Part shown: positions 5,323-26,122 of the stretch, piece by piece
How the letters are laid out: every line of letters starts with the position of its first letter
How positions within the stretch are numbered: the stretch's first letter is position 1
Source: an uncultured Spirochaetales bacterium
Lineage (GTDB): Bacteria > Spirochaetota > Spirochaetia > Sphaerochaetales > Sphaerochaetaceae
NCBI GenBank assembly: GCA_949282255.1
Contig: CASDPA010000001.1
Coordinates: 186,001-250,000 of the forward strand
Direction: 5' to 3'
Length of the DNA: 64,000 nt
Notes under the pieces: model-generated
The model's input: only the letters and a program-made list of their open reading frames with translations
What the model was told of the DNA's origin: nothing
Database searches by the model: none
Made by a program: the position numbers and the translations under genes

Positions 5323-5338
5323 CAAATTTCTGTTAAAC

Positions 5339-5367: not shown

Positions 5368-5390
5368 TTAGATGCGGAGGAAGCAGCTAT

Positions 5391-5624: not shown

Positions 5625-5651
5625 CAATAATAAAACAACTCCTTACAAAAG

Positions 5652-5682
5652 TATCCAGCCTAACAAGCTGGATATTTTTTTG
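5652..5682 (+). terminator. terminator of the NifU-like gene, abutting parS
   Basis: An 8-bp stem (TATCCAGC with GCTGGATA), a 7-base loop and eight T. The T tract runs into the parS site that begins at 5681. Confidence 0.85.
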
Positions 5683-5696
5683 TTTCACGTGAAACA
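5681..5696. promoter_or_regulatory. parS site, perfect consensus
   Basis: TGTTTCACGTGAAACA, a perfect 16-bp palindrome identical to the canonical ParB binding site. Confidence 0.93.
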
Positions 5697-6395
5697 TCAA
5701 AAAAAAGACAAAACTAAAAAAGAACATAAGAAGCCTATTTAACAGTATATAAATATTTATTCTATAATTTATCCTTTATCCAGATAAAAATATCCTATTG
5801 AATAGAATAAATAAGTACCAATAAGTGTATTGAAACATAGTAACACAAGATAATTTTAAAATATATATTTTATTTCAGTATAATAAAATCAATCACTTAA
5901 TTAAAATGCTTTTTACTGAAAAAATTTTAAAACATACAGAACTAAGTATTATAAAAATTACCTTTTACAGATTTTGAAATTTAAATTATAAGTATTGTAC
6001 ACTTCTGTTTCACGTGAAACATTTTAAATCCACAAATTGAAAAAACAAAAATAATTAAGTTATCAATCAATTGTTCTTTATTAAAGCTTCGAATAAATTT
6101 TATTCATATCTGTGTTCTTCCTTTGTTAGTATCTGTTTCACTAAAAACCCCATTTAAGCGCGTGAAATAAAGGTTTTTTTAATCGGATTCTATATATAGA
6201 AACATTTTCATGTGAATATCATGCTCCATTTTTACCTATTAAATAGGGTAGTTTTTTTTGTTTATCTTGAGCTTAATATTGTTTTATTTTTCTAAAAAAA
6301 CAGGATTCTTATCAAATTTTTATTATTCAATGAGTTTTCAATAAAAAATGAACCTGATTCATAAAAAAAGATTCCTAAACATTCATTTTGATATA
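5697..6395. other. gene-free AT-rich centromere-like spacer
   Basis: About 700 bases with no credible ORF between the NifU-like gene and gyrA. The stretch is very AT-rich, with runs of A and T, and holds one perfect parS plus a parS half site (TGTTTCAC near 6134). I see no promoter, tRNA or structured RNA I would defend. It looks like the centromere region flanking parAB. Confidence 0.5.
6006..6021. promoter_or_regulatory. parS site, perfect consensus
   Basis: A second TGTTTCACGTGAAACA, 325 bases from the first and in the same intergenic region. Confidence 0.93.
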
Positions 6396-6421
6396 AAAAT
6401 AGCCCATGCTAGGCATGGGCT
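6393..6421 (-). terminator. terminator of the gyrBA operon
   Basis: A 9-bp stem (AGCCCATGC with GCATGGGCT), three-base loop, followed on the minus strand by a T-rich tract just after the gyrA stop. Confidence 0.8.
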
Positions 6422-6439
6422 GTAAATGAAACTACAAGA

Positions 6440-10986: not shown

Positions 10987-11221
10987 GTTTGTCCTTTTGA
11001 ATACATTTTAAAAAAACAATATCCAGCATAAAAAATTACAATGCCGGATAATATTGAAATTATAACTTTTTTACAAAATAAATGCAATAAAACCAGCTTT
11101 TTTTATTGTATATGCAAGTATTTGCCATAAAAAGAGTTAATTAATAAAATCAAAGAAGGCGAAAATATATCTTGAACTCATCGCTTTTGACGGTTAACAT
11201 TAATGGCACGGTACATTGAAA

Positions 11222-12568
11222 ATGCTTAAGGAAATATGGGAAAAATCTAAGGAACAGATAATGGAAAGTCTTCCTGCATCAAAAACGATGTGGTTAAAAA
11301 ATGCAGAATATGACAGCGAAGCGGATAACGTGCTGACTTTATCCGTAACCAGCTCTTTTTACCTTGATAATCTCAAGAAAAACTGTCTGAGCCAAATGGA
11401 AAACACAGTATCAGATTATGCTGGACAACCTATAAAAATTGAATTGGTCATAAATGCCAACAGAGTAAAGACAACAGAAGATGAAAAGAAAGTTAGTAAA
11501 ACTAACAATGGCTTGGATATAAAGAAAAAAGAAAAAAATGAAACTTTAAATCAAGCATATACCTTTGATAATTTCATAATAGGGGAAAATAATATTTTTG
11601 CCTGCAATGTGGCCAAAGTAATAGCAAAAAACCCCGGAACAAGCTATAACCCATGTCTTATATATGGCGGTGTAGGCCTTGGAAAAACACATCTGACCCA
11701 AGCAATAGGAAATTATGTATATGATCATAATCCTAGGATGAAGGTTATTTATGTAACTGCGGAAACATTTACAAACGAATTGATACAATCCATAACAACA
11801 AGATCTGCAAATAATAAGTTCAAATCAAAATACAGATCGGCAGATGTGCTTTTGATAGATGATATCCATTTCATCGCAAATAAGGAAACAACTCAGGAAG
11901 AGATTTTTCATACATTCAATGAGCTTACCGAAAACTATAAGCAGATAGTCGTAACATGCGATCGTCCTCTTACGGAATTGACAGGCATAAATGAACGCCT
12001 CATCACAAGATTCAGAAAAGGTGTGAGTGTGGATCTCCAACCTCCACAATATGAAACAAGAATGGCAATAGCACAAAGGATGTGTAAAGATCTTGATTTC
12101 GCAATTTCAAATGATGTTCTTGAGTTTATCTGCCTTACGATCAAAACGAATGTCAGGGATCTCCAGGGAGCCATAATGACACTCAATTCTTTTTCAAAAC
12201 TGGTTGGAAAAACAATAACAAAAGACATTGCAGCTGAGCATATAAAAAACTTCATTCCAACCCAGTTGATAAAAAATAATGATATAACTATAGATCAGAT
12301 AGTCCATCATACATCAGCCTATTTCAATGTCAACGATTATGAGTTGAGAGGAAAAGGAAGAAATAAAACCTTGACCATAGCACGTCATATATCGATGTAT
12401 CTTGCAAACGAGCTTACAAATCTATCCCTTACCGAAATAGGAAAATATTTCAACAGCAAGGATCATACAACAGTAAGTTATGCATTGAACAAGATCAAAA
12501 GCATAATCAATACTGATGAAAGTGTTAAAATTGCCATCGATAACATTTCCGAAAATCTAAAGAAATAA
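11222..12568 (+). CDS. dnaA: chromosomal replication initiator DnaA
   Basis: DnaA binds DnaA boxes and melts oriC. The protein has domain I (DnaB/partner interaction, about residues 1-85), a short linker, an AAA+ domain with Walker A GGVGLGKTH and Walker B LLIDDIHF, and a C-terminal domain IV whose DHTTVSYALNKI segment is the box-reading motif. I chose the ATG at 11222; a TTG two codons upstream is possible. No convincing Shine-Dalgarno is present. TTGACG lies about 30 bases upstream, but the -10 box is poor. The origin follows directly. Confidence 0.96.
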   Translation: MLKEIWEKSKEQIMESLPASKTMWLKNAEYDSEADNVLTLSVTSSFYLDNLKKNCLSQMENTVSDYAGQPIKIELVINANRVKTTEDEKKVSKTNNGLDIKKKEKNETLNQAYTFDNFIIGENNIFACNVAKVIAKNPGTSYNPCLIYGGVGLGKTHLTQAIGNYVYDHNPRMKVIYVTAETFTNELIQSITTRSANNKFKSKYRSADVLLIDDIHFIANKETTQEEIFHTFNELTENYKQIVVTCDRPLTELTGINERLITRFRKGVSVDLQPPQYETRMAIAQRMCKDLDFAISNDVLEFICLTIKTNVRDLQGAIMTLNSFSKLVGKTITKDIAAEHIKNFIPTQLIKNNDITIDQIVHHTSAYFNVNDYELRGKGRNKTLTIARHISMYLANELTNLSLTEIGKYFNSKDHTTVSYALNKIKSIINTDESVKIAIDNISENLKK

Positions 12569-12998
12569 TGCTCTGCCTCTGAAATTCAGAGGTAGATAGA
12601 TTCATTATCGAAATTTTTTTATAACAGGCAATATTATTTATCAATTTTGTATTGTTATTAAATCTTATAAAAAAAATTAAAAATATTTTTACGTAATAGG
12701 TGTGAAAAACCTGTGGAAAACTAGTTAGAAACCCGTTAAAAAGTGGTGTAAAAACACTGCATTTCGGTTAAAAACCAGGAGAAAAACACGAAAATTTTTG
12801 TGGAAAACTTTGCAACATTGTGTTTAAAATTAAGCGTGAGTGTGAAAATGGTGAAAAAAACCTTTATTTTTTCACGGAGTTTTCCACAACGTAAACAACG
12901 TTTACAAAAAAAATTAATATAGGTTATTCACGTTTTCACATGCACTACTACAACTACTGATATTGATATATAATAACAGTTATAAGGAGAGAAAAAAC
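12569..12998. other. replication origin oriC
   Basis: The 430-base gap between dnaA and dnaN holds no gene. It has an AT-rich stretch (about 12605-12695) suited to unwinding and three exact TTTTCCACA-type boxes: 12712-12720 and 12799-12807 on the minus strand, 12880-12888 on the plus strand. Related words TGTGAAAAA (12701-12709), TTTTTCACG (12868-12876) and TTATTCACG (12924-12932) surround them. The dnaA-dnaN setting and these boxes make it the natural origin. The GGAG ribosome site of dnaN lies at its right end. Confidence 0.85.
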
Positions 12999-14102
12999 AT
13001 GAAATTCATCTGTTCATGCGAAAGCCTTAAAAAAGAAATTGGATACGCAATAAATTTCACAACAAAAAGAAATGCACTTGCCATAACAAGCAACGTACTT
13101 CTCGAGAACCAAAATAATATCCTTACAATAAAAAGCACTGACGGAAAAAATGGTTTCGTGGGAAGAATTGAAGTAGAAACAATAATTCCTGGTTCGACAA
13201 CAGTAATATGTGAAAAGCTGTTCGATGTTCTTAAAAATATCTCTTCTGATATTTCCTTGGAATTCTCAGAAGAAAATGAAAAGCTTTCCATAAAAAACAG
13301 TACAGACAGCAAATTCCTGATAAACATAAGAACAATATCTTCTGAAAAATTTCCTGATATGCAGGAATTTGTTGAAGATGATTATTTTACAATAGGACAA
13401 AGCGATTTCTTCGATATGGTTGACAAGACAAGCTTTGCTGTAAGTCGTGATGAATCCAGATATTTCCTTACCGGTGTTTATATGGAAAAGAAGGATGACA
13501 AAGTTGTAATGGTTGCAACCGACGGAAAAAGACTTGCCTGTGTTAAAAGGGTTTTTGAAAATGAGATTCCTACTTTTACCCCTTCAATCCTTTCCACCCA
13601 ATTCTTATCCAATTTAAGGATGATAGGATCTGGTGATGGTGTGATGAGTCTTGCATTCAAAAATTCTTATGCATACGCAAATATAGAAGGTCATTTCATA
13701 TATTCTCTAATAATAACAGGAAACTATCCCAATTATGAAAGAGTCATACCGAAAGAATTTTCCAGCAGATGCAGGCTGAACACTTCCGATATGCTTGATG
13801 CAATAAATCTTATTTCTGTCATGATAGAAATGAAAAGTAAAAAAATCTTTTTCGATATAAATCATGATGGTGTGATGGTATCTGGCGAAGACAATGACGG
13901 AGACAGCAAGAACATAATAAAATGTGATTATGAAGGCCCTGAAGTAAAGCTTAGTTTCAATTACAATTTTCTTCAGGAATCAATAAAGAAAATCGATAGC
14001 GAAGAGTTTAATCTCTGCTTTAATTCCAGTAATTCCGCAATCGGTCTTCTTAGTGAACCTGAAAAAGATTACATTTTCATAATAATGCCGATGCAGGCAT
14101 GA
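12999..14102 (+). CDS. dnaN: DNA polymerase III beta subunit (sliding clamp)
   Basis: A ring-shaped processivity clamp of 367 residues with the three repeated clamp domains of the family. The C-terminus ends YIFIIMPMQA, close to the usual I-M-P-M-R clamp ending. The start is set at ATG 12999 because AAGGAG lies 8 bases upstream; an in-frame codon 12 residues earlier has no ribosome site and adds residues unlike the family. recF follows 7 bases after the stop, so dnaN, recF and the DUF721 gene form one operon downstream of oriC. Confidence 0.96.
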   Translation: MKFICSCESLKKEIGYAINFTTKRNALAITSNVLLENQNNILTIKSTDGKNGFVGRIEVETIIPGSTTVICEKLFDVLKNISSDISLEFSEENEKLSIKNSTDSKFLINIRTISSEKFPDMQEFVEDDYFTIGQSDFFDMVDKTSFAVSRDESRYFLTGVYMEKKDDKVVMVATDGKRLACVKRVFENEIPTFTPSILSTQFLSNLRMIGSGDGVMSLAFKNSYAYANIEGHFIYSLIITGNYPNYERVIPKEFSSRCRLNTSDMLDAINLISVMIEMKSKKIFFDINHDGVMVSGEDNDGDSKNIIKCDYEGPEVKLSFNYNFLQESIKKIDSEEFNLCFNSSNSAIGLLSEPEKDYIFIIMPMQA

Positions 14103-14109
14103 ACCTCAG

Positions 14110-15192
14110 ATGAGATTCAAATCAGTAAAAATTGAAAATTTCAGAAACATATCCTCCGTGTCAGTTGAAACCGATGCAGAGGATATAGTTCTTATAGGTT
14201 CCAACGGTCAAGGAAAAACAAATTTTCTGGAAGTCTTATATGTCTTATGCTATGGATCATCATTCAGGACATCGTATCTTAAGGAAGCTGTGAGACATGG
14301 TGAAGAAGGATTTCTTCTTGAAGCTAAATTCCAAAATGATTTTGAAGAGATTCAAAACATTAAATTTGTATTTGAAAAAAATAAGAGATATATAGAAATA
14401 GATGGTAAGGAAGTAAAGGATAGGAAGGAGCTTATATACCAATTTCCTTGCATAGTTTTTTGCCACGAAGATATAGATTTTATAAAAGGTGAACCGGAAA
14501 CCAGAAGAAAATTCTTCGATCAAACAATGAGCCTCTATTCACCTTTGTTCTTTGATGATCTCAGATCATATAGAAATGTTCTTGCTAAACGTAATGCTGC
14601 AATAAAAAATTGCCAATACGATATTATTCCAATATATGACATCAAGCTTTCAGATATAGGCTTTTCTATAATGAAAGAAAGAAAAAAAGCTGTGGAGGAT
14701 TTCAACAGCATATTTCCTTATTTGTATAAGAAGGTATCAAAAGGGGATGACGACCTTTGCATAGTTTATCAAAGCTCATGGATGGATGTAAAAGATAAGG
14801 ATGAGATCATTAGGCTTCTTGATGAAAAAAGAGAAGTCGATATCAAAATGGCTACAACCACATCCGGAGTGCACAGGGATAGGTTTCTTGTAAAAAACTC
14901 ATATGGCATATTTAGTCAAATAGGATCCACTGGACAATTGAGATTATGTTCCCTGATATTCCGCATAGCAGAAGCAGAATCCTTTTATAGGATGACTGGT
15001 AAAAAGCCTATATTGCTTTTGGATGATGTATTGTTGGAATTAGATGATGAAAAGAGAGCTTTATTCTTAGATAATCTTTCAATATACAGCCAATCATTCT
15101 TTACATTTCTTCCCAGGGAAAATTACTTTAATGACGAACATAAGAAGCCTATGTGCTACAATGTCAAAAACGGAGGTTTTACACTTGTCTGA
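14110..15192 (+). CDS. recF: DNA replication and repair protein RecF
   Basis: An SMC-like ATPase that loads RecA at gaps. The 360-residue protein opens with the RecF pattern LKIENFRN-like KSVKIENFRNISS, then Walker A GSNGQGKTNFLE near residue 34. The signature-type STGQLRLCSLIFR occurs near residue 277 and the Walker B region LLLDDVLLELDDEKR near residue 301. It lies between dnaN and a DUF721 gene whose start overlaps its last codons. Length matches the family. Confidence 0.95.
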   Translation: MRFKSVKIENFRNISSVSVETDAEDIVLIGSNGQGKTNFLEVLYVLCYGSSFRTSYLKEAVRHGEEGFLLEAKFQNDFEEIQNIKFVFEKNKRYIEIDGKEVKDRKELIYQFPCIVFCHEDIDFIKGEPETRRKFFDQTMSLYSPLFFDDLRSYRNVLAKRNAAIKNCQYDIIPIYDIKLSDIGFSIMKERKKAVEDFNSIFPYLYKKVSKGDDDLCIVYQSSWMDVKDKDEIIRLLDEKREVDIKMATTTSGVHRDRFLVKNSYGIFSQIGSTGQLRLCSLIFRIAEAESFYRMTGKKPILLLDDVLLELDDEKRALFLDNLSIYSQSFFTFLPRENYFNDEHKKPMCYNVKNGGFTLV

Positions 15193-15487
15193 TAAGCTTT
15201 ATAAAGATGCTAAGGAAGTTGTATCCTCGGTTTTGGAAGAAGTCATAGGCAATATAGAAAAAAGGCCTTTTAGAATATGTGAAAGATGGAATGATGTAGT
15301 TGGTCCGAATCTTAAGGATTTTTGCGAATTCGAAAAAGTTTCCAAAAAAACGCTTTATATAAACGTATTCAGCCATAATTATACAACTTATGTTCTGATG
15401 AACAAAAATTCGATAATAAGAAAATTCAATTCTTTTTATCCTGATCTCAAAGTGGGCAGCATAAAGGTATTTTGCAATCAGGATTAA
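15185..15487 (+). CDS. DUF721 (DciA-like) protein
   Basis: A 100-residue protein matching DUF721, the family that includes the DciA helicase loader-like proteins that interact with replicative helicase DnaB. The start is a TTG at 15185 because CGGAGG lies 8 bases upstream and the gene then overlaps recF by 8 bases; longer in-frame versions would extend inside recF. The core pattern RICERWNDVVGPNLKDFCEF-like segment near residue 40 is the DUF721 hallmark. The neighbourhood dnaA-dnaN-recF-DUF721 is common in spirochaetes and actinobacteria. Function here is inferred from family and context. Confidence 0.8.
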   Translation: MSDKLYKDAKEVVSSVLEEVIGNIEKRPFRICERWNDVVGPNLKDFCEFEKVSKKTLYINVFSHNYTTYVLMNKNSIIRKFNSFYPDLKVGSIKVFCNQD

Positions 15488-15517
15488 TTTTTTGAATAAA
15501 AAAGAATAGAATATCTA

Positions 15518-15546
15518 TTGACCTGTATCCTAACAGTCTGTAAAAT
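15518..15546 (+). promoter_or_regulatory. promoter of rpmH-rnpA-yidC-jag
   Basis: TTGACC, exact 17-base spacer, TAAAAT, about 75 bases before rpmH. Confidence 0.75.
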
Positions 15547-15620
15547 TCAATGACTGGACACCTGTGTCTTTTTAAAAATGAAAAAAATTAACGCATAAGC
15601 GGAAATATTGGAGATTACCC

Positions 15621-15788
15621 ATGAGTTACAAAGGCAAGAGAACTTATCAGCCAAGTAAGATGAAGAGAACCAGAAAGTTTGGTTTCCGTGCAAGAATGGC
15701 TACAAAGGGTGGACGTCTGGTACTTGCTCGCAGAAGGGCAAAGGGCAGATACAACCTCACTGTCAGCGATGAGAAAAAGCCTTACTAA
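15621..15788 (+). CDS. rpmH: 50S ribosomal protein L34
   Basis: A short gene encoding 55 residues. The protein starts [19 protein letters not shown] and continues [20 protein letters not shown], which is the L34 pattern, with a longer C-terminal tail ([12 protein letters not shown]) than the usual 44-46 residues. GGAG lies 8 bases before the ATG. It is the first gene after a strong promoter, and its last 20 bases also encode the start of rnpA in another frame. Confidence 0.95.
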
Positions 15789-16134
15789 GACTGAAATCAT
15801 CAGAAAAAGAGACGATATTGATCGCATTTTCAAGCAAGGAAAGCGTTTTTCTTGTGAGGGAATGCGATTAATTGCTCTTTATAACAATCTTGGTTTCGAT
15901 AGGTTTATCGTTATTCCTGCAAAGCATTATGGGAATTCAGTAGAAAGAAATCTTGTAAGACGTAGAGCTAAAGAGATATTCAGATGCTGGCCAAACAGAT
16001 TGTTTAAGGATCAGTCCTCTTCTAAATATTCAGGCTTAGATTTGGTCTTGGTGGTGTATCCAGGAAGGGTTTCCGATTTTTCCTTGCTTGAGTCCAATTT
16101 CAATCATCTGTTGGACAGGTTGGATCGGAAATAG
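15769..16134 (+). CDS. rnpA: ribonuclease P protein component
   Basis: The protein subunit of RNase P, which matures the 5' ends of tRNAs. The chosen start is ATG 15769, giving 121 residues that begin [16 protein letters not shown]; this overlaps rpmH by 20 bases. A longer in-frame ORF begins inside rpmH but encodes residues unlike the family. The RNR signature reads [18 protein letters not shown] near residue 56. yidD, often found next, is absent: only 83 bases separate rnpA from yidC and they hold no ORF. Confidence 0.92.
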
Positions 16135-16217
16135 TTCCTTTTTCCTCTTCATGCAGAGTTCCTATTCCTACCTTCTAAATACACGACTTCACTTTTTTCA
16201 TCAATAAAGGAGAAAAA

Positions 16218-18041
16218 ATGGATAGGAATACTGTTATTGCAATCGTTTTATCAGCAATTGTAATCATAGCAGCAACAACAATACAGGCAGTGTTTTTCAC
16301 TCCTGAAATCGATTATGAAGCACTGGAAACCCAGCAGACGGTTGAAACCGATACTGCTGTTGTTTCCTCTTCCACTGAAGCATCTAAAGCTTATGGAACT
16401 TTATTCAAAGAGGTTGGGGACCAACCATCCATTGATAAATTCCATATAGAAAACGATGTTATAGATGTAACATTCGATCCATCAGGTGCAACTGTAAGCA
16501 GCGTCAAACTCAAGGAGCATAAAACAAATGGACAGCCTTCAGAGTTCATATTCAAGGATGAAGGTTCTGTTGGTGCTTTCATGCTTTATGCCGGAAATGA
16601 TAGGACCAATCCCATAGATGCAGCTTTCAATTATGATGTGAAGCAGATATCCGTTGATGACGGAAATATAATCCAGGTGACTTTCTATCGTGATTTCATG
16701 GATACGGAAACAGGTGGTATATTCACTATAAGAAAGATTTTTGCAATACCTCAAAATGATGAATACATGATTCAGCTTGTTGTCGATATAGATACTGCTG
16801 ACGGATCTTCCATTCCACTGAGTTTCAATGGTGATTGTTATAGTCTAAGCTTCGGACCACAGGTTGGACCTGAGTTTGACAACCTCACAAGTAATTATGA
16901 TTATAGAAGGGTAAGCGTTCTCAGAAACGACAAAGGAAGCAAAACCAATGTCAAATACGATAAGAGCGGCGTATATACCTATGTTCCTGAAAAAGAGGAT
17001 GAATATCTCGATTGGATGAGTCTTGGTGGAAAGTATTTTGTTGCAATCGCAATTCCTGAGACAGATGGCATAATAAGTGAATATACTGCTACAAACACTA
17101 CAAAAGAAGAAGGTGTAAGCCAAGAAAATTATATTTATCTCACAAGAGAAGCGACATCAGCTTCTTCAGTGAAAGATGTCTATTCCTATTATCTTGGACC
17201 TCAAAGCAGCAGCGATCTTGTAAAATATGACAGAGCGCAGGACAATATATTCGGATTAAGCGAGCATAGGCTGAAGAAGGCATCCGATACCAGCTGGCTT
17301 GGCTGGCTTGAGACAATACTCAAATGGTGCCTTACCTTGATTTACAAGGTTATTCCAAATTATGGTGTCGCCATAATAATCATGACCATCATAATCAAGC
17401 TTCTTCTTCATCCTCTTACAAAGAGAAGTATGGAATCGACAGCCAAGATGGGAGCTCTTCAGCCTAAGATAAATGAGATAAAGGAACGTTTCCCTGATGA
17501 TCCCCAGGCTCAGAATCTTGCTATGGCCAAGCTTTATAAGGAAGAGAACATCAAGCCTATGAGCTCATGCTGGCCAATGCTGATCCAGTTCCCGATCCTT
17601 ATCGCTTTCTACGGCCTTCTTAATAACAATATAGATCTCCGTGGAGCAATGTTCATTCCTGGATGGATCACAGACCTTTCCATACCTGAAACCGTCTATA
17701 CGCTTCCGTTCAATATTCCATTCTTGGGAAACAAAATCCATTTGCTTCCGATACTTTATACTGTAAGCATGATTTTCAGTATGAAGATAACCCAGCAGGG
17801 TACTTCGGCTGCAGCAGGTCAAGCTGGAATGATGAATTTCATGACATATGGCATGCCTATAATATTCTTCTTTATTCTTTATAATGCACCTTCCGGTCTC
17901 CTTGTTTATTGGTCTGTGATGAACGTAATCTCGATTGGAACGCAGATTTATGTCAATAAGAAGAAAGGAAGCCAATTCAAGCTTGAAGAAGCAAAGAAGG
18001 AAGCTGATAGGCTTGCATCAAAGAAGAAAAAGAGAAGGTAA
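16218..18041 (+). CDS. yidC: membrane protein insertase YidC
   Basis: YidC inserts and folds inner-membrane proteins. The 607-residue protein has the layout of diderm bacteria: an N-terminal membrane helix (about residues 7-27), a large periplasmic domain (about 50-360), and a conserved C-terminal core of five helices with the hydrophilic loop RSMESTAKMGALQPKI. The lysine- and arginine-rich tail KKEADRLASKKKKRR can contact the ribosome. AAAGGAG precedes the ATG. It lies between rnpA and jag. Confidence 0.96.
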   Translation: MDRNTVIAIVLSAIVIIAATTIQAVFFTPEIDYEALETQQTVETDTAVVSSSTEASKAYGTLFKEVGDQPSIDKFHIENDVIDVTFDPSGATVSSVKLKEHKTNGQPSEFIFKDEGSVGAFMLYAGNDRTNPIDAAFNYDVKQISVDDGNIIQVTFYRDFMDTETGGIFTIRKIFAIPQNDEYMIQLVVDIDTADGSSIPLSFNGDCYSLSFGPQVGPEFDNLTSNYDYRRVSVLRNDKGSKTNVKYDKSGVYTYVPEKEDEYLDWMSLGGKYFVAIAIPETDGIISEYTATNTTKEEGVSQENYIYLTREATSASSVKDVYSYYLGPQSSSDLVKYDRAQDNIFGLSEHRLKKASDTSWLGWLETILKWCLTLIYKVIPNYGVAIIIMTIIIKLLLHPLTKRSMESTAKMGALQPKINEIKERFPDDPQAQNLAMAKLYKEENIKPMSSCWPMLIQFPILIAFYGLLNNNIDLRGAMFIPGWITDLSIPETVYTLPFNIPFLGNKIHLLPILYTVSMIFSMKITQQGTSAAAGQAGMMNFMTYGMPIIFFFILYNAPSGLLVYWSVMNVISIGTQIYVNKKKGSQFKLEEAKKEADRLASKKKKRR

Positions 18042-18048
18042 TATATAA

Positions 18049-18753
18049 ATGTGCAAAGAATTTGAAGGGAGGACCGAAGCAGAAGCCTTGCAGAAGGCTC
18101 GTGAAGAGCTGGGTCTTAAAAATGATGATGTATATGTGGAGGTTCTTGAAGAGGTCAAAAAGACCATCTTCAAGAAAGGATATGTCAAAATCCGCGTATA
18201 TTACGGGGAAGATGGTGATTCTTCAGGATCCGATTTGGAAGATAATTCCAAGGATGGTGATATGATACCTGGACAGGTGCTTGAAGCGGAAAACGATTTT
18301 GAAAGGAAAACAATAGATTATATTTCCACTTTGATAAAGAAAATGGGTTATGAAGCTTCAGTAACTATAAATTATAGAAAGGATAACAAGATTGGAATCA
18401 ACATCGATAGTCCTGATTCAAGCATCATAATCGGAAGAAAGGGAAAGAATCTTGATGCAATACAGCTTCTTGCCAACGTATATGCCGGTAATATAGATGA
18501 GGATGTCAAAATCGTAATCGATAGTGAAAATTACAGAATGCGTCATGAGGAACAGATTGTAAGGAATGCATACAAGGCAGCCGAATATGTGAAAAGGACA
18601 GGAAGAAGCAAGCTTCTTGATCCAATGAATCCTTTTGAACGCAGACTTGTGCATACTGCATTGAATGATTTCAAGGGCGTCGATACCAAAAGTGAAGGGG
18701 AAGGCCTTTATAAGCAGGTTAGGATAATTCCTTTCAAGGAAATCGAAAAATAA
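18049..18753 (+). CDS. jag: Jag/KhpB-type RNA-binding protein
   Basis: A 234-residue RNA-binding protein with the Jag N-terminal domain (FEGRTEAEALQKAREELG), a KH domain carrying the GxxG loop as IIGRKGKNLDAIQ near residue 126, and an R3H domain with NPFERRLVHTAL near residue 199. In Gram-positive bacteria Jag/KhpB partners KhpA and affects cell division and envelope gene expression; the role in spirochaetes is not known to me. It starts 8 bases after yidC, with only a weak ribosome site, so translation is probably coupled. A terminator follows. Confidence 0.92.
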   Translation: MCKEFEGRTEAEALQKAREELGLKNDDVYVEVLEEVKKTIFKKGYVKIRVYYGEDGDSSGSDLEDNSKDGDMIPGQVLEAENDFERKTIDYISTLIKKMGYEASVTINYRKDNKIGINIDSPDSSIIIGRKGKNLDAIQLLANVYAGNIDEDVKIVIDSENYRMRHEEQIVRNAYKAAEYVKRTGRSKLLDPMNPFERRLVHTALNDFKGVDTKSEGEGLYKQVRIIPFKEIEK

Positions 18754-18766
18754 ATTACTGGTTATT

Positions 18767-18799
18767 TTTCTCCGGTATGGATGCCGGAGAAATTTTTTT
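18767..18799 (+). terminator. terminator of the rpmH-jag operon
   Basis: A 9-bp stem (TTTCTCCGG with CCGGAGAAA), an 8-base loop and a run of T. Confidence 0.85.
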
Positions 18800-18813
18800 A
18801 CTTGGTATGCTTA

Positions 18814-18848
18814 TTAAAAAAAGGTAGGACGAACCTACCTTTTTTGAT
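18814..18848. terminator. bidirectional terminator below rubrerythrin
   Basis: A 10-bp stem (AAAAGGTAGG with CCTACCTTTT) around a five-base loop, with A and T tracts on both sides. It ends the perR-rubrerythrin transcript on the minus strand. Confidence 0.8.
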
Positions 18849-18865
18849 TTTCATTATTACTCAAA

Positions 18866-19408
18866 TCAATAGTTCTTTCCGAGAAGCTCGAAATATGCCT
18901 GAGGATGAGCACATACAGGGCAAACTCCAGGAGCAGCCTTTCCTACATGGATGTGTCCGCAGTTTCTGCACTTCCAGATCATTTCTCCATCTCTTGAGAA
19001 TACTAATCCTTCTTCAACATTCTTTAAGAGAGCAAGATATCTTTCCTCATGCTCCTTTTCAATCTTTGCAACACCCTTGAAAAGAGCTGCGATCTTTGTG
19101 AAACCTTCTTCCTCGGCTTCTTTTGCAAATGTTGCATACATATCGGTCCATTCATAGTTCTCACCAGCTGCAGCATCCTTCAGGTTCTCTGTTGTTGATG
19201 GGATCTCTCCGCTGTCATGAAGAAGCTTGAACCAGAGCTTTGCATGCTCTTTCTCATTCTCTGCTGTTTCAAGGAAGATTGCAGCAATCTGCTCATATCC
19301 TTCCTTCTTTGCTTTGGAAGCATAGTAGGTGTACTTATTCCTTGCCTGGCTCTCGCCTGCAAACGCCGTCTGAAGATTCTTTTCAGTCTTTGATCCTTTC
19401 AGTTCCAT
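18866..19408 (-). CDS. rbr: rubrerythrin
   Basis: Rubrerythrin is a di-iron NADH peroxidase that detoxifies hydrogen peroxide in anaerobes. The 180-residue protein has the ferritin-like domain with [12 protein letters not shown] and ENEKEH, then [10 protein letters not shown], and a C-terminal rubredoxin domain with CRNCG and [12 protein letters not shown] start it at ATG 19408, two bases after the perR stop, where AAGGAG inside perR serves as ribosome site; eight extra upstream residues are not supported. The partner gene is its likely regulator, which supports a peroxide-defence role and an anaerobic lifestyle. Confidence 0.95.
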
Positions 19409-19410
19409 TT

Positions 19411-19812
19411 TTATATCTCCTTGGCATTGCATTTAGTGCATATGCCTTCAAAAACCAGTTGATAGGAAGACAGTTTGAAATCATCGTCTCCCATTACATT
19501 GACCTTTGAAACAACAGAATCATCGACGGGAAAATCCACATCGAAAACTCTTCCACATTGAGTGCATTTTGCATGGAAATGCGGCTGTGTGTTCATATCA
19601 TACCTATCGGAGCCGTTACCGATTTTGGGAATTCTTCTTATTTTGCCCTTTTCTTCAAGCTCAGAGAGGTTCCTGTAGACGGTAGCCTTTGAAATATGAG
19701 GAAACGATTCATGAACTTTCTCATATAATTCCTCGGCTGTAGGATGTCCCATGAACGTCTTGAGACTGTTATAGGTCACTTCCTTTTGAAGAGTGTTTCT
19801 GGTCTGTTTCAT
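19411..19812 (-). CDS. perR: Fur-family peroxide-type regulator (PerR-like)
   Basis: A 133-residue Fur-family repressor. The winged helix shows [27 protein letters not shown]; the metal-binding hinge has [10 protein letters not shown] and the structural zinc site is completed by CTKC at the C-terminus. Length, two CxxC motifs and the co-transcribed rubrerythrin point to PerR rather than Fur, but the sequence cannot prove which signal is sensed. Its own promoter contains a near-perfect 7-1-7 operator over the start site, so it is probably autoregulated. Confidence 0.88.
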
Positions 19813-19824
19813 CCTTATCCTTAT

Positions 19825-19870
19825 TGATAATTATTACCAATATAATATTATTATCAGTAACATATGTCAA
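19825..19870 (-). promoter_or_regulatory. perR-rbr promoter with Fur/PerR-type operator
   Basis: On the minus strand TTGACA (19865-19870), 17-base spacer, TATTAT (19842-19847). The operator at 19825-19839 reads TGATAATTATTACCA, 14 of 15 positions of the 7-1-7 Fur/Per motif, and covers the transcription start. A second, half-conserved copy ends at 19856 and overlaps the -10 box. Confidence 0.82.
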
Positions 19871-19920
19871 TAGAATTCATCTGTCATTTATAAATAATAT
19901 AACACCAAATATAAAAAGTA

Positions 19921-21237
19921 TTAAATCGTTCCTTTATCTGTTTCCTTTTTATCCTTGTCTTTCGGAAGTATTATATTCAAGATCACAGCCACTATTGTGG
20001 CAACGACTACAGGTGATTTTGCAAATACCATGGTAACCCATTCAGGAAATTGGCTTAAGGCCTCTGTGACTTGGCTTATTCCGACTCCAAGCGCGGCTGA
20101 AAGCCCCACTATGGATGTGTTTCTGTAATTCATCGGTTGGGAAACCACCAGCTTCATTCCTGTCATTGCTATTGATGCGAAAACCGAAACAGTAGCTCCT
20201 CCTAATACGCACTGCGGTATTGTAGTTAAAATTGCACTGAATTTTGGAATCAAACCTGCAACCACCAATAAAAGGGCGGTTATTGAAATTACTTTTCTGT
20301 TTACTACTTTTGTAGTCGATATTATGCCGACGTTTTGACTGTAGGTTGCTGTAGGCAATCCTCCAAAGAGGGCTGATACGATATTTGAGGCACCATAGGA
20401 TAATATGCCTCTTTTGAGCTCGTTGCCTGTAGGTTCTCTTGATAAGCCTCCGACGGTTGTTGCAGTCATATCTCCTATCGCCTGAATGGAGTTTATGGCG
20501 AATAGAATGGAAAATGCAAATATGGCTGAAAGTTCAAATCTGATACCAAACGGTGCTATTTTTGGAAGTGAGAATATGGAAGAGGTGGAGATGCTTGAAA
20601 AATCCACCATTTTGAAAGGAAGGCTCAATATATATCCGGATGCGATTCCTATAAGTATGCTTGCAAGTTTGATTATTCCTTTGCCAAAATGGTTGCATAC
20701 TGTAACGATGATAAGAGTTGCAACCGCTATGATCCAGTTCTGCCATGAACCAAAATTCGGATTACCGCTTCCTCCGGCCATATAGGTTATCGCTGTTGGG
20801 TATAATGATAATCCTATTGTGAATACGACAGTTCCTGTAATCAATGGAGGAAACAGTTTCTGCAGCTTTTTGGCAAACATACCGATGATCATTGCAATAA
20901 GTCCACCGATTATCTGAGCTCCGAATATTTCTGCTATTCCAAATCCGGAAACGATTGCTTGCATGCTCGATAGATATGCAAATGATACACCCATTATCAT
21001 TGGAAGCCTGGATCCTATAAATAGCTGGACAAAGGTTGAAAAGCCTGCTGTCACCAATGAGGTTTGTATAAGCAGTACGCTTTTTGCATTATCAAGCCCT
21101 GCCATATTTGCGATTATTATCGAAGGTGTCACACATCCGACAATCATTGCAACCAGGTGTTGCATGGCCATCGGCAATGAATACTTCAGATTTGGGAATT
21201 TCCCATCAAGCTCGAATAACAGATCTTTTTCACTCAT
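19921..21237 (-). CDS. NCS2-family nucleobase permease (uracil/xanthine type)
   Basis: A polytopic transporter of about 438 residues in the NCS2/NAT family that imports uracil, xanthine or uric acid by proton symport. Visible family signs are PMAMQHLVAMIVG at the N-terminus, ATTVGGLSREPTG in the middle and the NAT motif region ATYSQNVGIISTTKVVNR near residue 300. The substrate cannot be fixed by eye. An ATG seven codons upstream exists, but neither start has a Shine-Dalgarno. A candidate promoter places transcription one base before the ATG at 21237, so I use that start. Confidence 0.85.
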   Translation of the reverse strand: MSEKDLLFELDGKFPNLKYSLPMAMQHLVAMIVGCVTPSIIIANMAGLDNAKSVLLIQTSLVTAGFSTFVQLFIGSRLPMIMGVSFAYLSSMQAIVSGFGIAEIFGAQIIGGLIAMIIGMFAKKLQKLFPPLITGTVVFTIGLSLYPTAITYMAGGSGNPNFGSWQNWIIAVATLIIVTVCNHFGKGIIKLASILIGIASGYILSLPFKMVDFSSISTSSIFSLPKIAPFGIRFELSAIFAFSILFAINSIQAIGDMTATTVGGLSREPTGNELKRGILSYGASNIVSALFGGLPTATYSQNVGIISTTKVVNRKVISITALLLVVAGLIPKFSAILTTIPQCVLGGATVSVFASIAMTGMKLVVSQPMNYRNTSIVGLSAALGVGISQVTEALSQFPEWVTMVFAKSPVVVATIVAVILNIILPKDKDKKETDKGTI

Positions 21238-21244
21238 TATTATG

Positions 21245-21272
21245 ATGGTACTACACATTCCCGTAAATTCAA
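21245..21272 (-). promoter_or_regulatory. candidate near-leaderless promoter of the NCS2 permease
   Basis: TTGAAT, 16-base spacer, TACCAT, then seven bases to the ATG. The -10 box is weaker than in the other leaderless cases. Confidence 0.4.
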
Positions 21273-21340
21273 GTGAAAATAGCCATATTTATGAAAATAT
21301 TTAGTATTTGCTCAAAATTTTGATAATATGAATTATTATA

Positions 21341-22327
21341 TTAGAAATTATCCTTTAAATATTTGATGAGTTCCTCAGTTTTATCCTTAGAAAATTGGGC
21401 TCCCAATTGGCTTATGATTTCCCCAGCAAGGAAGCTTGCAATCTTTGCAGATGTCTCCACATCATAACCTTTTGCGATTCCAAACAGAAAACCTGATGCA
21501 TATGTATCTCCAGCTCCTGTAGTATCTATCGGATTATCCGTACCGTATAAAGGTATCTGGTATATCTTTCCCTCATGTGATACATAAGAACCTTTCTTTC
21601 CGTTTTTTACTACAGCAGTGCGGCAAAGCTTTCCCAGTGATTTGCAGCACTCATAGGCATCATAGTTGTCGATAAGGTTTCTTGCTTCTTCACTGTTTGC
21701 AAAAACCACATCCACATATCCTTTGATGATATCCAAAAATGTCTGCCTGTATCTTCCGACTGCAAAAGGATCCGCTATATCGAAAGCGACTTTGAAAGAG
21801 CATTCTTTTTTCATTTCAAGAACACTTTTTATAGCTTTTTTCTGAGGCTCTGTGTCCCACATGTATCCCGTGAAATAGAAAATATCCGCTTTTCTTACAT
21901 GCTCTTTTTTAACATCGCTGCTGTCAAAAAACCTGTTGGCTCCCAAATAGGTGCACATTGTGCGTTCCCTGTCTTCTGTTACAAGAATTATGCTTGTTCC
22001 CGTAGGCTCGTTTTTTTCAACCAGACCATTTATGACGCCGAGTTCGTCAAGTTTTTCAGCATACATTCTTCCATGCTCGTCAGATCCTATGCCTCCTGCT
22101 AAGATTGTGGAGATTCCAAGACTTTTCAATGTCACCATGGTATTGGGGCAGGAACCGCCGCAGGAGTACCTTATATCCTTATTTTTTATATAATCAAGTA
22201 TTTCGATCCTTTTATCTTTATCTATCAGATTCATCGTGCCCTTATGAAGGCCTAAAGCTGTGATATCCTCATCGTTGATGAAGCATAGATAATCTATCAG
22301 CGGGTTTCCTATTCCATATACAACCAT
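21341..22327 (-). CDS. PfkB-family carbohydrate/nucleoside kinase
   Basis: A ribokinase-fold kinase of about 328 residues. It begins MVVYGIGNPLIDYL, has the N-terminal substrate region CGGSCPNTMVTLKSLG and the C-terminal PfkB signature DTTGAGDTYASGFLFG with the catalytic aspartate. The overall pattern, including GSDEHG and TYLGANRFF, resembles adenosine-kinase-like members, but the substrate is not certain. The start is moved 11 codons in from the longest ORF because a TATAAT box ends seven bases before this ATG and no Shine-Dalgarno exists. It stands alone between two AT-rich gaps. Confidence 0.85.
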   Translation of the reverse strand: MVVYGIGNPLIDYLCFINDEDITALGLHKGTMNLIDKDKRIEILDYIKNKDIRYSCGGSCPNTMVTLKSLGISTILAGGIGSDEHGRMYAEKLDELGVINGLVEKNEPTGTSIILVTEDRERTMCTYLGANRFFDSSDVKKEHVRKADIFYFTGYMWDTEPQKKAIKSVLEMKKECSFKVAFDIADPFAVGRYRQTFLDIIKGYVDVVFANSEEARNLIDNYDAYECCKSLGKLCRTAVVKNGKKGSYVSHEGKIYQIPLYGTDNPIDTTGAGDTYASGFLFGIAKGYDVETSAKIASFLAGEIISQLGAQFSKDKTEELIKYLKDNF

Positions 22328-22334
22328 ACTAAAG

Positions 22335-22362
22335 ATTATATCTTTTTTAGCGTCCAGCACAA
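22335..22362 (-). promoter_or_regulatory. promoter of the PfkB gene, predicted near-leaderless
   Basis: TTGTGC, 16-base spacer, consensus TATAAT, then CTTTAGT and the ATG. Transcription would start one base before the codon. Confidence 0.65.
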
Positions 22363-22844
22363 AGCATATTCATTCATTTTTGCATAACACCATATATGGG
22401 ATAAAACAGAGTTTTTCACAGGTTTTTCACGGGGTCGTGAAATGCCGTGGAAAACCATCATTACCACTGCTTTTCCCGTATTTTTCATACAAAGGTATAT
22501 AAAAAGTTAAGTTATTATATTATAAAAAAATATAATAAGACAACATGTCCAAGATTAAATGAAAGTTATATAATAAATTAATAATTTTCCTATATGTGAA
22601 AAAACCTGTTTTTCTGCAGTTTTTCACGAGTTATTCACTAAATCGTACATTTGTATGATTTTGGTGTAAATATAGGTATGGAATGAAGTTAAATTTTAAT
22701 TAAATATTCTATATATAACACTATATATGGTGTATTAATTTTATTTTATGAAAAATTCCCCGCCATATATATCAAATAGAAAAACATATGTTTTTTTTAT
22801 GAAAGGAGTTGCATATATTTTTGATGATTACAAGGGTTTTTGTA
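22363..22844. other. gene-free region with DnaA-box-like word cluster
   Basis: About 480 AT-rich bases with no credible ORF. Words close to those of oriC recur: TTTTTCACA at 22412-22420, TTTTTCACG at 22423-22431 and 22620-22628, CGTGGAAAA at 22446-22454, TGTGAAAAA at 22595-22603 and TTATTCACT at 22631-22639. An inverted CACCATATATGG pair also occurs (near 22389 and 22720). No terminator or structured RNA is clear. See findings. Confidence 0.45.
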
Positions 22845-23582
22845 CTATCTGTTTTTTATGCTTTGTATGGCACCCATCATATATATACCAGCTGTTTCCG
22901 CCCTTAGGATGTTTGTATTCAATATGACTGGATGAAATCCGGCATTCTCCGCACTTTGGCATTCCTCATCTGTGAAGCCTCCTTCGCTGCCTATGAAAAC
23001 GCTTATCTCATCTGCATCTGTATTATTTTCCAAAAGGGTGAGTATGTTCTCACTTTTTTTTCTTTTGCCCTGGTGAAGAATGATTTTTAAACCCTTTGCC
23101 TCATCTATGGCTTTTGAAAACGGAACATTGAAAAAAAGATGGCACAGTTTCGCACCAGATTGCTGGACTGCTTCATTTCTGATGGTTTCAAGCCTGTTCA
23201 TTTCATGGATATCGATTTCTTTCTGCTGGACAAGGGAGCTTTCGATGAATGTCAATTGTGTTGCTCCAGCTTCCTGGAGCTGTCTGGTTATCTGTGCGTT
23301 CTTTTTTCCTTTGCAGATGCATTGGTATATGTATATCTTTACAAAATCACCTGAATACGATGGCATGGCATCAAAATAATTGCTATTGTCGAAAGATTCT
23401 TCAAGAATCAGGGTATCGTTTTTGTCTAGTAATGCATCATAAAGGTTTTCTTTATGATCTTTTGCTTTGAAGACAGCTCCTTCTTTTATTCTCAGAACAT
23501 TTTTTATATAGTTCCTTTCTTTTTCAGAAAGAGGGTAGATGCGTCCATCAACCTTGTTGCCGTTTAAAAGAAAAATCCTCAT
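22845..23582 (-). CDS. rsmE: 16S rRNA m3U1498 methyltransferase RsmE
   Basis: A SPOUT-class methyltransferase of 245 residues that modifies U1498 of 16S rRNA. The C-terminal knot carries VFIGSEGGFTDEECQSAENA and the closing LNTNILRAETAG, both hallmarks of RsmE; the N-terminal PUA-like domain contains the NVLRIKEG segment. It overlaps the end of the S41 peptidase gene by four bases (ATGA), so it is translated as the second gene of that operon. Confidence 0.93.
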   Translation of the reverse strand: MRIFLLNGNKVDGRIYPLSEKERNYIKNVLRIKEGAVFKAKDHKENLYDALLDKNDTLILEESFDNSNYFDAMPSYSGDFVKIYIYQCICKGKKNAQITRQLQEAGATQLTFIESSLVQQKEIDIHEMNRLETIRNEAVQQSGAKLCHLFFNVPFSKAIDEAKGLKIILHQGKRKKSENILTLLENNTDADEISVFIGSEGGFTDEECQSAENAGFHPVILNTNILRAETAGIYMMGAIQSIKNR

Positions 23583-25015
23583 TTTTCTTCCTTTATGAAT
23601 TCGATAGCGGCTGAAAGCACAGGATCATAATCAGGAGTGGCTACAGGTCTTTCCGAGATATCCATCGAATAAATGTATTCGTTTCTCATGAGAAGGCAGA
23701 GTATATCGTGAGGCACTCCGGTATCAGCATACATTTCGGCAAATTTCTCTATATTTTCAATGCTGTATTCAGGATTGTCATTCATAAAAGAGGTTATGCT
23801 GCCGGTATGCATGAAATCCTCATATGCCTGCATTTCCTCATCCGTATACTCTTTCTCTTCTATTATTATATCCGGTTGTATACCTTTCTTGTTTATGTTG
23901 TTGCCTTTGGGGGTGTAATAGTCTGCTGAAGTGAATCTTATGAATCCCCCTGCATACGGGATCACAGATTGCATGATACCTTTTCCAAAGGTTTGGGAAC
24001 CAATAACTGTTGCTCTTCCATTTTCTTTAAGTGCCGCTGTCATGATCTCACTGGAAGAAGCTGTTCCTCCGTTTACAAGTATAACAACCGGGATATTGTT
24101 ATCTATCACAGTTTCCTTGTCCGCTTGATATGTTGTATTAGGCATTCCCGAGGTATCCTTGTATTTCAAACTTACCATGTCTCCTTCTGATAGGAACATG
24201 TCCGCAATCTCGAGACAGGAATCGACAATACCGCCTCCATTGTTCCTTAAATCTATTATTATTGCGGTCGGATTTTCATTTTTTATTTCCAACAAAGCTT
24301 CTTTGACACTCTTTGAGCTTGCTTCTGTGAATTCATATATTCCCAGATAGGCTATCCCGTCTTCAAGCATTCCGTGAACGCAGGTGGGTATTATCACTTT
24401 CTCAGGTATGAGCTTGATTTCAAAGGAGCTCGTTCCCCTTAGCACGGAAAGGGTCATTTCCTCTCCTTCCTTGCCCCTTAAAAGCCTGGAAGCTTCTGTT
24501 GCATCCATGCTGGATACATCGGTCCCATTTATTGAGCTGATAAGATCGTTTGCCCGTAAGCCGGCCCTGTCCGCAGGTCCTCCAGGAAAAGGAGACACTA
24601 TTATCAGCATATAGGTCTCAGGATCTGAATAATCTGCAAGGGCTGGATTGACCTTGGATACATATGTGCCTATCCCGACATACTCGCCTTGGACATCTTC
24701 TTCAAAAGCTTCTGCATCCTTTGCAGATATGTAGTATGAGTATTCATCTCCAAGGCTGTTGACAAGCGCCGATATAAGCTGCTGGGATACCTCTTCGTTA
24801 TCTATTTCATATAGGAAGTTCTTATCAAGATATGCATACAGATTGCTTATCGAATAAAGTATTTCGCTTATGCTCTTTTCCTTCATTTCAGAGCTTTGGA
24901 GCATGTTTGAGGCGACAATGCCGGCGCTTATGGGATTTTCCCTGTTTCCTCCTGCGGTAAGAGTTGAGAGACAGGCAAGAGCCAGGAGGATAGCGGAAAT
25001 AAGTTTTTTCATCAT
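23579..25015 (-). CDS. S41-family C-terminal processing protease
   Basis: A serine protease of the Ctp/Tsp type, about 478 residues from the MMKK start. An N-terminal signal sequence (KKLISAILLALACLSTLTAGG) directs it to the envelope. A PDZ domain follows (FPGGPADRAGLRANDLI, about residues 140-165), then the peptidase domain with LRNNGGGIV, the nucleophile region NGGTASSSE and the lysine region GSQTFGKGI. The longest ORF would add 14 residues, but a TATATT box ends six bases before the chosen ATG, predicting a leaderless mRNA. It is divergent from lgt. Confidence 0.9.
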   Translation of the reverse strand: MMKKLISAILLALACLSTLTAGGNRENPISAGIVASNMLQSSEMKEKSISEILYSISNLYAYLDKNFLYEIDNEEVSQQLISALVNSLGDEYSYYISAKDAEAFEEDVQGEYVGIGTYVSKVNPALADYSDPETYMLIIVSPFPGGPADRAGLRANDLISSINGTDVSSMDATEASRLLRGKEGEEMTLSVLRGTSSFEIKLIPEKVIIPTCVHGMLEDGIAYLGIYEFTEASSKSVKEALLEIKNENPTAIIIDLRNNGGGIVDSCLEIADMFLSEGDMVSLKYKDTSGMPNTTYQADKETVIDNNIPVVILVNGGTASSSEIMTAALKENGRATVIGSQTFGKGIMQSVIPYAGGFIRFTSADYYTPKGNNINKKGIQPDIIIEEKEYTDEEMQAYEDFMHTGSITSFMNDNPEYSIENIEKFAEMYADTGVPHDILCLLMRNEYIYSMDISERPVATPDYDPVLSAAIEFIKEEK

Positions 25016-25021
25016 GTAAAT

Positions 25022-25050
25022 AATATAACCTAAAAGGAAAAAGGTGTGCA
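25022..25050 (-). promoter_or_regulatory. promoter of the S41 protease operon, predicted leaderless
   Basis: TGCACA, 17-base spacer, TATATT, six bases, then the ATG of the protease. The -35 match is modest. Coordinates may be off by one base. Confidence 0.5.
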
Positions 25051-25072
25051 CCTCCATAAAATATCAATTTTA

Positions 25073-25102
25073 TTGACCATGCCATCATGTAGAATCTATA
25101 CT
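25073..25102 (+). promoter_or_regulatory. promoter of lgt, predicted leaderless
   Basis: TTGACC, 18-base spacer, TATACT, then CAAGCC and the lgt ATG. Two upstream in-frame starts lie before the predicted transcription start and cannot be used from this promoter. Confidence 0.7.
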
Positions 25103-25108
25103 CAAGCC

Positions 25109-26122
25109 ATGACCCTCTATATTGATTATCCTTCATGGATAGACCCTTATGTGGTTTCGTTTTTACCTGTCAGGTGGTATGCGGTGATGTACCTGGTTGC
25201 GTTTTTCATCACTTATCTGCTTTTCAGATATCAGGTATCACATGACAAGATCATAAAAATGACCGGAGATCAGATCGAGGGGCTCTTTTTTTGCTGTATA
25301 ATCGGCCTTTTTTTGGGAGCAAGGATTTTTTCCTGTATTTTTTACAGCGATACTGTTTATTACCTCACTCATCCCTGGATGATGTTCTGGCCTTTTGAGA
25401 ATGGGAAATTCACAGGTCTTCCTGGAATGAGTTATCACGGAGGAGCTGTCGGCTGCTTTTTGGGAGGATGGATTTATGCGAGGAGAAATAAAGGATCCAT
25501 TCTTTTGTTCACGGACATGATGTGTGCGGGAATACCTTTGGGGTATACATTCGGCAGACTTGGAAATTTCATAAATGGAGAGCTTTACGGTCGTGTGACG
25601 TCTTCTTCCATAGGAATGGTTTTCCCTCTTGCTGAGCGGTTTTCAACAACTCATGCATGGGTCAGGGAAATAGCGGATAAGATCGGAATGAACTACAGCT
25701 ATGGGGATATGTTGAACCTTCCAAGGCATCCGGCCCAATTATATGAGGCACTTTTCGAAGGTATTTTCCTTTTTCTAATACTTTGGTTTTTGATAAGGCC
25801 TTTGAAATATAAGAAAGGGTGGAAGGATGGTGTCATCTTTGCCTTCTATCTCATTGGTTACGGTCTTGTGCGTTTTATAATAGAATATTTCCGTGAGCCT
25901 GATGCTTATCCCGGATATGTCATTAAATTGGGGGAAGGAAGCGGAAATATAGCTGTTTTCACATCATTTTTGAATATAAGCAGAGGACAGGTGTTCTGTT
26001 TTCTGATGATTTTAGGCGGTCTTGCACTGCTCTTGTTTCTTAAATTATGGAGGAATGATTATGAAGGAAATAGACCAAAGAGTGGAAAACCTGAGAAAAA
26101 TTCTAAAACAAAAAGGGTTTGA
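25109..26122 (+). CDS. lgt: prolipoprotein diacylglyceryl transferase
   Basis: Lgt attaches diacylglycerol to the lipobox cysteine of prelipoproteins in the inner membrane. The 337-residue, multi-helix protein starts MTLYIDYPSWIDPYVVSF and has the essential YHGGAVG and the Lgt signature GRLGNFINGELYGR, plus HPAQLYEA. The start is set by the promoter, which puts transcription at this ATG. The gene runs 62 bases into the next gene in a different frame, an unusually long overlap. The lipoprotein found at 39.4 kb would be a substrate. Confidence 0.94.
   Translation: MTLYIDYPSWIDPYVVSFLPVRWYAVMYLVAFFITYLLFRYQVSHDKIIKMTGDQIEGLFFCCIIGLFLGARIFSCIFYSDTVYYLTHPWMMFWPFENGKFTGLPGMSYHGGAVGCFLGGWIYARRNKGSILLFTDMMCAGIPLGYTFGRLGNFINGELYGRVTSSSIGMVFPLAERFSTTHAWVREIADKIGMNYSYGDMLNLPRHPAQLYEALFEGIFLFLILWFLIRPLKYKKGWKDGVIFAFYLIGYGLVRFIIEYFREPDAYPGYVIKLGEGSGNIAVFTSFLNISRGQVFCFLMILGGLALLLFLKLWRNDYEGNRPKSGKPEKNSKTKRV

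Follow-up and report, generated by a model that had tools for sequence, protein, structure and literature searches.

A conserved two-module DnaA-box element outside oriC in spirochaetes: a candidate site of DnaA capture

Why does a gap between two genes, about 10 kb from dnaA, carry the DnaA-box words of the replication origin? What is understood of how DNA elements outside the origin control initiation comes for the most part from E. coli and to some extent from B. subtilis. The window analyzed here, meaning the whole stretch of 64,000 nt, covers positions 186001-250000 of contig C1 in the 2.35-Mb genome of a gut spirochaete, and its nearest pfkB relatives are uncultured Spirochaetales. A sequence-only reading of the window had pointed to a gene-free region with the word set of oriC. 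Three roles had been offered for it: titration of DnaA in the manner of datA, one part of a bipartite origin, or regulation of the pfkB gene.

The gap lies between a pfkB-family carbohydrate kinase gene (21341-22327, minus strand, ATG at 22327; Pfam PF00294, E 4.3e-46) and, on the other flank, an rsmE-like RNA methyltransferase gene (22845-23582, minus strand, stop at 22845; Pfam PF04452, E 4.6e-32). The gene-free gap was confirmed, but its extent was corrected from 22363-22844 to 22328-22844, because the pfkB start kept in relatives is the ATG at 22327-22325 and not an upstream GTG. The gap is about 75% AT. All of the oriC words were found in it where they had been read, with five exact DnaA boxes versus six in oriC. 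Judged by sequence, the true oriC is the dnaA-dnaN intergenic region (12569-12999, plus strand), in which the trio-like run CACTACTACAACTACTGATATT stands before dnaN.

The whole element spans 22387-22733 on the minus strand, in the orientation of pfkB, as supported by the match to model R1 (see below) and by an alignment of 38 elements. On this strand the order is distal boundary motif, distal double box, AT-rich centre with TTATATAA, proximal double box, and proximal boundary motif. The proximal double DnaA box, TTTTTCACA-GG-TTTTTCACG, is located at 22412-22431 on the plus strand. It had been described as a mirror of oriC, and the corresponding minus-strand pair, TTTTCCACA-GG-TTTTTCACA, was indeed present at 12701-12720. 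The distal double box, TTTTTCACG-AG-TTATTCACT, is located at 22620-22639 on the plus strand, 208 bp from the proximal one; its plus-strand words are TTTTTCACG at 22620-22628 and TTATTCAC at 22631-22638. Inside each of the two modules, the exact-box scan found a single box with the opposite orientation. These minus-strand boxes are TTTTCCACG at 22446-22454 (plus-strand letters CGTGGAAAA) and TTTTTCACA at 22595-22603 (plus-strand letters TGTGAAAAA). Relatives likewise have a box of this orientation directly inward of the proximal module.

Three further motifs, all unstranded, complete the element. The central palindromic motif TTATATAA (22566-22573) lies closer to the distal module (66 bp) than to the proximal one (142 bp), and the element centre has a mean of 81% AT over 80 bp. 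The proximal boundary motif ACACCATATATGGGAT (22387-22402) reads TGGTGT on the minus strand, 39 bp from the start of the proximal double box, and is supported by the recurrence of TRGYGT in relatives. Similarly, the distal boundary palindrome ACACTATATATGGTGT (22718-22733) is supported by the recurrence of ACRCYA; in the minus-strand reading, the palindrome ACACCATATATAGTGT begins 94 bp ahead of the first double box.

Exact boxes of the form TTWTYCACR occur 16 times in the window: six in oriC, five in the gap, and five singly elsewhere. At least five exact boxes were reached by none of 500 order-1 and none of 500 order-2 Markov sequences (means 0.09 and 0.33). When boxes with one mismatch were included, the gap held eight, and 12 of the 500 order-2 sequences reached this number, which is a weaker excess. 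The words might have occurred at a similar density in many other intergenic regions, which would have spoken against the sequence-only reading, and this was not the case. With intergenic regions defined by ORFs of 100 aa or more, 58 regions with a minimum length of 100 bp were compared in 213.4 kb of the contig. Six exact boxes were counted in oriC, five in the gap, one in a single further region, and none in the other 55.

The words were also counted genome-wide, as had been proposed. The double box at 2-bp spacing had only two perfect matches in the whole genome, one in oriC and one in the gap (the proximal double box). With up to one mismatch there were four places, namely oriC, both gap modules, and C14:32603, and with up to two mismatches there were 17 versus 7 for the reversed control. 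The single word TTTTTCACR was not rare, with 124 matches in the genome (100 of the 124 listed) versus 64 for the reversed control. In E. coli, DnaA is reported to prefer box pairs spaced 2-3 bp in vivo (PMC11317965). Elsewhere in the window, a 1.8-kb stretch at 4603-6439 has 30% GC, no ORF of at least 100 aa by a crude call, and 14 one-mismatch DnaA-box words, with no exact box.

Conservation was measured with R1, a model of the sequence built from 38 of a set of 50 elements, for which E-values are rough. The set consists of the window element and 49 of 80 loci, with both modules in the same orientation. Forty-eight of its loci came from the module-pair scan, and L050 (232 bp) was added by hand from single boxes. 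L056 (170 bp) and L076 (210 bp, other strand) were omitted despite their module pairs; also outside the set are loci at contig ends and those, such as L011, that may hold diverged copies. In this genome (G000), R1 matched the window element at C1:208377-208664 (window 22377-22664) with 114.5 bits (E 4e-33). The next-best match, at 19.8 bits, was in oriC, which leaves a single strong copy.

The gap was also found to be conserved in relatives, where the sequence-only reading had suggested looking. At E <= 1e-4, R1 matched 132 of the 139 genomes of the order, including 73 of 75 good-quality genomes and 21 of 22 genera, and 128 of the 132 matched at E <= 1e-8. In the class sample, 127 of 297 genomes matched at E <= 1e-4. 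A count of the rows puts 42 of these in the family (of 44 genomes) and 85 outside it (of 253), where some of the weaker matches are partial or adjoin dnaA. A profile HMM from the same alignment was run on 2.0 Mb of fetched loci, among them its training loci and chosen matches. It gave 169 matches at E <= 1e-3, and none when the loci were reversed. Twenty far loci were hand-picked from among the stronger matches outside the family. Two of them are directly upstream of dnaA, and in 15 of the other 18 a homologue of murA and/or of a sigma-54 activator is present in the fetched stretch.

One metagenome-assembled genome, G044, has two strong R1 matches (C138:2964-3254 and C142:30665-30954; 145.9 and 131.3 bits), so the rule of one element per genome is not without exception. 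This bin probably gave the two pfkB loci L023 and L040, and may be a mixed bin or hold a true duplication. In the window genome, the element is non-coding, strongly conserved, distinct from oriC, and found once.

The spacing of the parts is constrained across the 50 elements. The distance between the modules is 208 bp in 10 elements (including the window), 222-223 bp in 6, 228-231 bp in 33, and 232 bp in 1. The centre motif, with up to one mismatch and at 60-90 bp, was found in 45 of 50 elements versus 18% of shuffled stretches. Among the 46 elements that have the motif (up to one mismatch), 42 carry it 66/67 or 76/77 bp from the distal module, and in 41 it is 142 or 153-156 bp from the proximal module. 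TRGYGT was present in the interval from +15 to +50 relative to the proximal module in 41 of 50 elements versus 1.6% of shuffles, and it starts 18, 27/28, or 38/39 bp from the module start in 40 of these 41. In the 130 bp upstream of the distal module, 31 of 50 elements have ACRCYA versus 11.7% of shuffles. The shuffles in these tests, and in the trio and IHF tests, preserve base composition only.

In three spacers, the main length classes are set apart by roughly one turn of the helix. This suggests a need for the sites to lie on one face of the DNA; inside the family, the one-turn steps represent few independent events. A strict helical periodicity across the class was not seen, as the distances outside the family range from 198 to 258 bp under a looser rule, with no clear period. 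An IHF-like site in the element centre was not clearly enriched. IHF-like words with up to one mismatch lie between the modules in 35 of 50 elements versus about 27 expected for one consensus, and in 29 versus about 22 for the other, at most slightly above the composition-only shuffles. In the right half of the centre, a TTGACA word follows an AT-rich stretch in some members of the family (L029, L031, L034, L035, L038, L041, L043, L053-L055, and L060), as if another protein bound there.

The boxes of the element also follow those of oriC in their spelling. Among the 31 genomes with both regions at hand, the box dialects of element and oriC covary (Spearman 0.62, 0.65, and 0.75, kinship ignored), with L007, L021, and L029 as exceptions. 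TTTTTCACR is common in the window lineage, and TTATCCACA is common in Sphaerochaeta-like genomes. The unusual box TTTTCAACA predominates in both element and oriC of L017, L018, L025, L026, L033-L035, and L046, and in these genomes the recognition by DnaA domain IV may have changed. The joint shift of the two dialects points to the same protein acting at both places.

We read the gap as a non-coding, non-origin control element that would capture DnaA and play a negative role in initiation, and we assign this reading a probability of roughly 0.6. The element probably has a part in setting the frequency of chromosome replication. The double boxes are predicted DnaA dimer sites, placed at a fixed distance on both sides of an AT-rich and probably bendable centre. 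DnaA dimers or short oligomers on both modules would join into one stable looped complex, and the loop would lower the free DnaA pool, alter the nucleotide state of DnaA, or both, through titration, ATP hydrolysis, or reactivation. Initiation at oriC would thereby be restrained. That DnaA occupies the element, that a loop forms, and that initiation is affected are inferences, and the negative sign is taken by analogy with datA and the B. subtilis clusters. No Hda was detected above the curated cut-off in this genome, which would make control by DnaA capture plausible. Of the three roles first offered, titration of the datA kind is the best supported, the element being a conserved group of boxes, single-copy in this genome, that is neither coding nor oriC.

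Among the other readings, the one that survives best is that the gap holds a DnaA-controlled promoter for the neighbour gene, here pfkB, by which metabolism would be coupled to the cell cycle. In the window lineage, the element is near enough to the pfkB promoter for regulation. The proximal module lies 84 bp from the pfkB ATG, and a TATAAT at 22340-22335 stands 7 nt ahead of this ATG. TATAAT or TATACT is found near the pfkB start in many aligned relatives, which suggests that pfkB transcription is possibly leaderless. Furthermore, Borrelia DnaA is reported to bind upstream of dnaX-ebfC, dnaE, holA, and dnaA in gel shifts (PMC9879097). The flanking genes were tallied for 92 of 97 loci by a crude ORF-based method. 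Tandem flanks, which would suit a promoter, were counted in 54 loci, but 37 loci were convergent and only 1 was divergent, miscalls occurring in both classes. Five loci were unclassed (three at contig edges, two without a module pair), and L095-L142 repeat in part the species already among L002-L061.

The deeper relatives speak against this promoter as the general role. There, the element is flanked by murA and a sigma-54-activator-type gene, both with their 3' ends towards it, and murA separates it from pfkB. In L045 the element is inverted between unchanged neighbours. The window lineage appears to have lost the sigma-54 activator and murA at this place, which would have put the element before pfkB. 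Joint conservation of the element with pfkB adjacency was therefore not observed: the two are adjacent in the window lineage, and murA is between them in deeper relatives. The 340-bp layout also seems larger than a promoter and operator would need. Regulation of pfkB, as had been suggested, may take place in the window lineage, but it is unlikely to be the ancestral role because the element sits between convergent genes, with murA before pfkB, in the deeper relatives. As an explanation of the element as a whole, the promoter is unlikely.

The closeness to oriC leads to another reading, in which oriC is bipartite and the element, about 10 kb from the dnaA-dnaN region, is its second half, competent for unwinding. 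The two share identical words, and the element has an AT-rich centre. The element is 9.8 kb from dnaA in the window genome and 6.9-48 kb from it (median 10.2 kb) in the 90 of 132 matched genomes of the order that have both on one contig. Among the others is G034, which has the two on separate contigs, with each match more than 130 kb in. A DnaA-trio run was detected in 25 of 31 oriCs, so that the test misses 6 of 31, versus 20 of 620 shuffled oriCs, and in none of the 50 elements examined. A count of at least three CTA triplets, too crude as a trio measure, was reached by 14 of 31 oriCs versus 1 of 50 elements. The cumulative GC-skew minimum over 213.4 kb is at window position 11094, just left of dnaA, and not at the element. 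AT skew at 4-fold sites changes between the two sides of oriC, and the eight ORFs that separate the element from oriC show right-replichore signs; in GC skew, the 4-fold sites gave no clear switch there. For Borrelia, the origin has been placed between dnaA and dnaN, where DnaA bound in gel shifts (PMC9879097).

The distance in family f24 weighs further against a bipartite origin. In four genomes with long contigs, the element is far from dnaA: it is 473 kb away in G291 and 561 kb in G265, and, counted around the presumed circle, 389 kb in G346 and 863 kb in G374. In three of these four genomes, homologues of murA and of the sigma-54 activator are within the fetched 15 kb. A bipartite origin is unlikely because the element lies about 0.4-0.9 Mb from dnaA in f24; with the lack of trio runs in the 50 elements and the strand switch near dnaA, this second of the proposed roles was rejected, and we consider its chance small.

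The gap could also encode a small structured RNA or a terminator. In favour are its length and conservation as an intergenic region, the conserved TTATATAA, and the TTGACA-like word of several relatives. However, Rfam gave no match at gathering scores in 11000-26000, and no consensus fold was predicted from the 38-element alignment. No terminator-like sites were found in the gap, and its promoter-like sites numbered 2 versus 5.3 in shuffles; a sigma-70 promoter inside the gap was rejected on this count. The RNA reading is thus highly improbable. Finally, that the boxes are a functionless by-product of AT-rich composition has next to no chance, since the AT content of the gap, the frequent TTTTTCACR, and the one-mismatch counts are outweighed by the Markov sequences, the intergenic comparison, the conservation and constrained spacing throughout the order, and the empty reversed loci.

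Returning to DnaA capture, its history can be drawn only tentatively, and we hold the following account to be somewhat less than an even bet. The element may be old, inherited vertically as a DnaA-control element from a common ancestor of a large part of Spirochaetia, and as a rule present once per genome. Its two double boxes, a set number of helical turns apart, would form a DnaA loop. It would mostly have kept its old neighbourhood (sigma-54 activator, STAS, murA), while drifting to positions between about 7 kb and several hundred kb from oriC. A two-module layout of 215-245 bp also stands immediately upstream of dnaA in several other families (L168-L173, L177, L185, and L189), so the architecture is not specific to the pfkB-side locus. 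G259, G251, G233, and G311 have a remote element as well as the dnaA-upstream layout, and the latter may be a dnaA autoregulatory loop.

If the ancient reading is true, the element would be, to our knowledge, the most widely conserved of the datA/DARS kind, and in at least the window genome it occurs without an Hda above the cut-off. The presence of a compact DnaA-box element throughout the order and in many further families of the class would point to an early origin and a wide distribution of this type of control. Its constrained spacing is a direct handle on DnaA looping as a mechanism. Searches of an open-access library for papers on spirochaetes, Treponema, or Sphaerochaeta with DnaA listed none with such an element in its title or abstract opening.

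Among the closest known systems is E. coli datA. Like datA, the gap holds an intergenic, non-origin box cluster outside oriC. In datA, the boxes are described as placed around a bend site with fixed spacings; the locus is reported to promote ATP hydrolysis, and its deletion to raise origins per mass (PMC10950094, PMC5295017, PMC4585315). The points of comparison are that in datA boxes flank a central protein site, that their spacing matters for function, and that datA is near oriC (same sources). The gap element has TTATATAA at constrained distances in its centre, but the IHF consensus is not clearly enriched between its modules. It differs in having two double boxes about 208-233 bp apart, in another phylum and another gene neighbourhood; the likeness is drawn at the level of sequence.

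DARS1 and DARS2 are similar in being non-coding, with conserved boxes, spacer lengths, and loci, and a double box is reported at DARS2 (PMC4585315, PMC11317965). datA and DARS are reported to be conserved over E. coli strains (PMC4585315). The effect of a DARS would be positive, in contrast to the negative role proposed here. In B. subtilis, joint removal of six DnaA-box clusters is reported to cause early initiation (PMC5295017). The gap resembles these clusters as a group of boxes outside oriC, here 9.8 kb from dnaA. The six clusters have a strong effect only if all are removed, whereas here there is one strong, two-module copy that is found order-wide. Several clusters per genome were not seen: this genome has one strong R1 match and one further one-mismatch double-box place. 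Near the E. coli origin, an accumulation of boxes is proposed to favour DnaA titration (PMC12371093); that region is a broad density bias over many boxes, while the gap holds one compact element. We assign the element to none of these classes, since it shows no clear enrichment of IHF sites and its copy number differs from that of the B. subtilis clusters. By analogy, the element more probably than otherwise works as datA, DARS, and the B. subtilis clusters do, in a role of the capture type.
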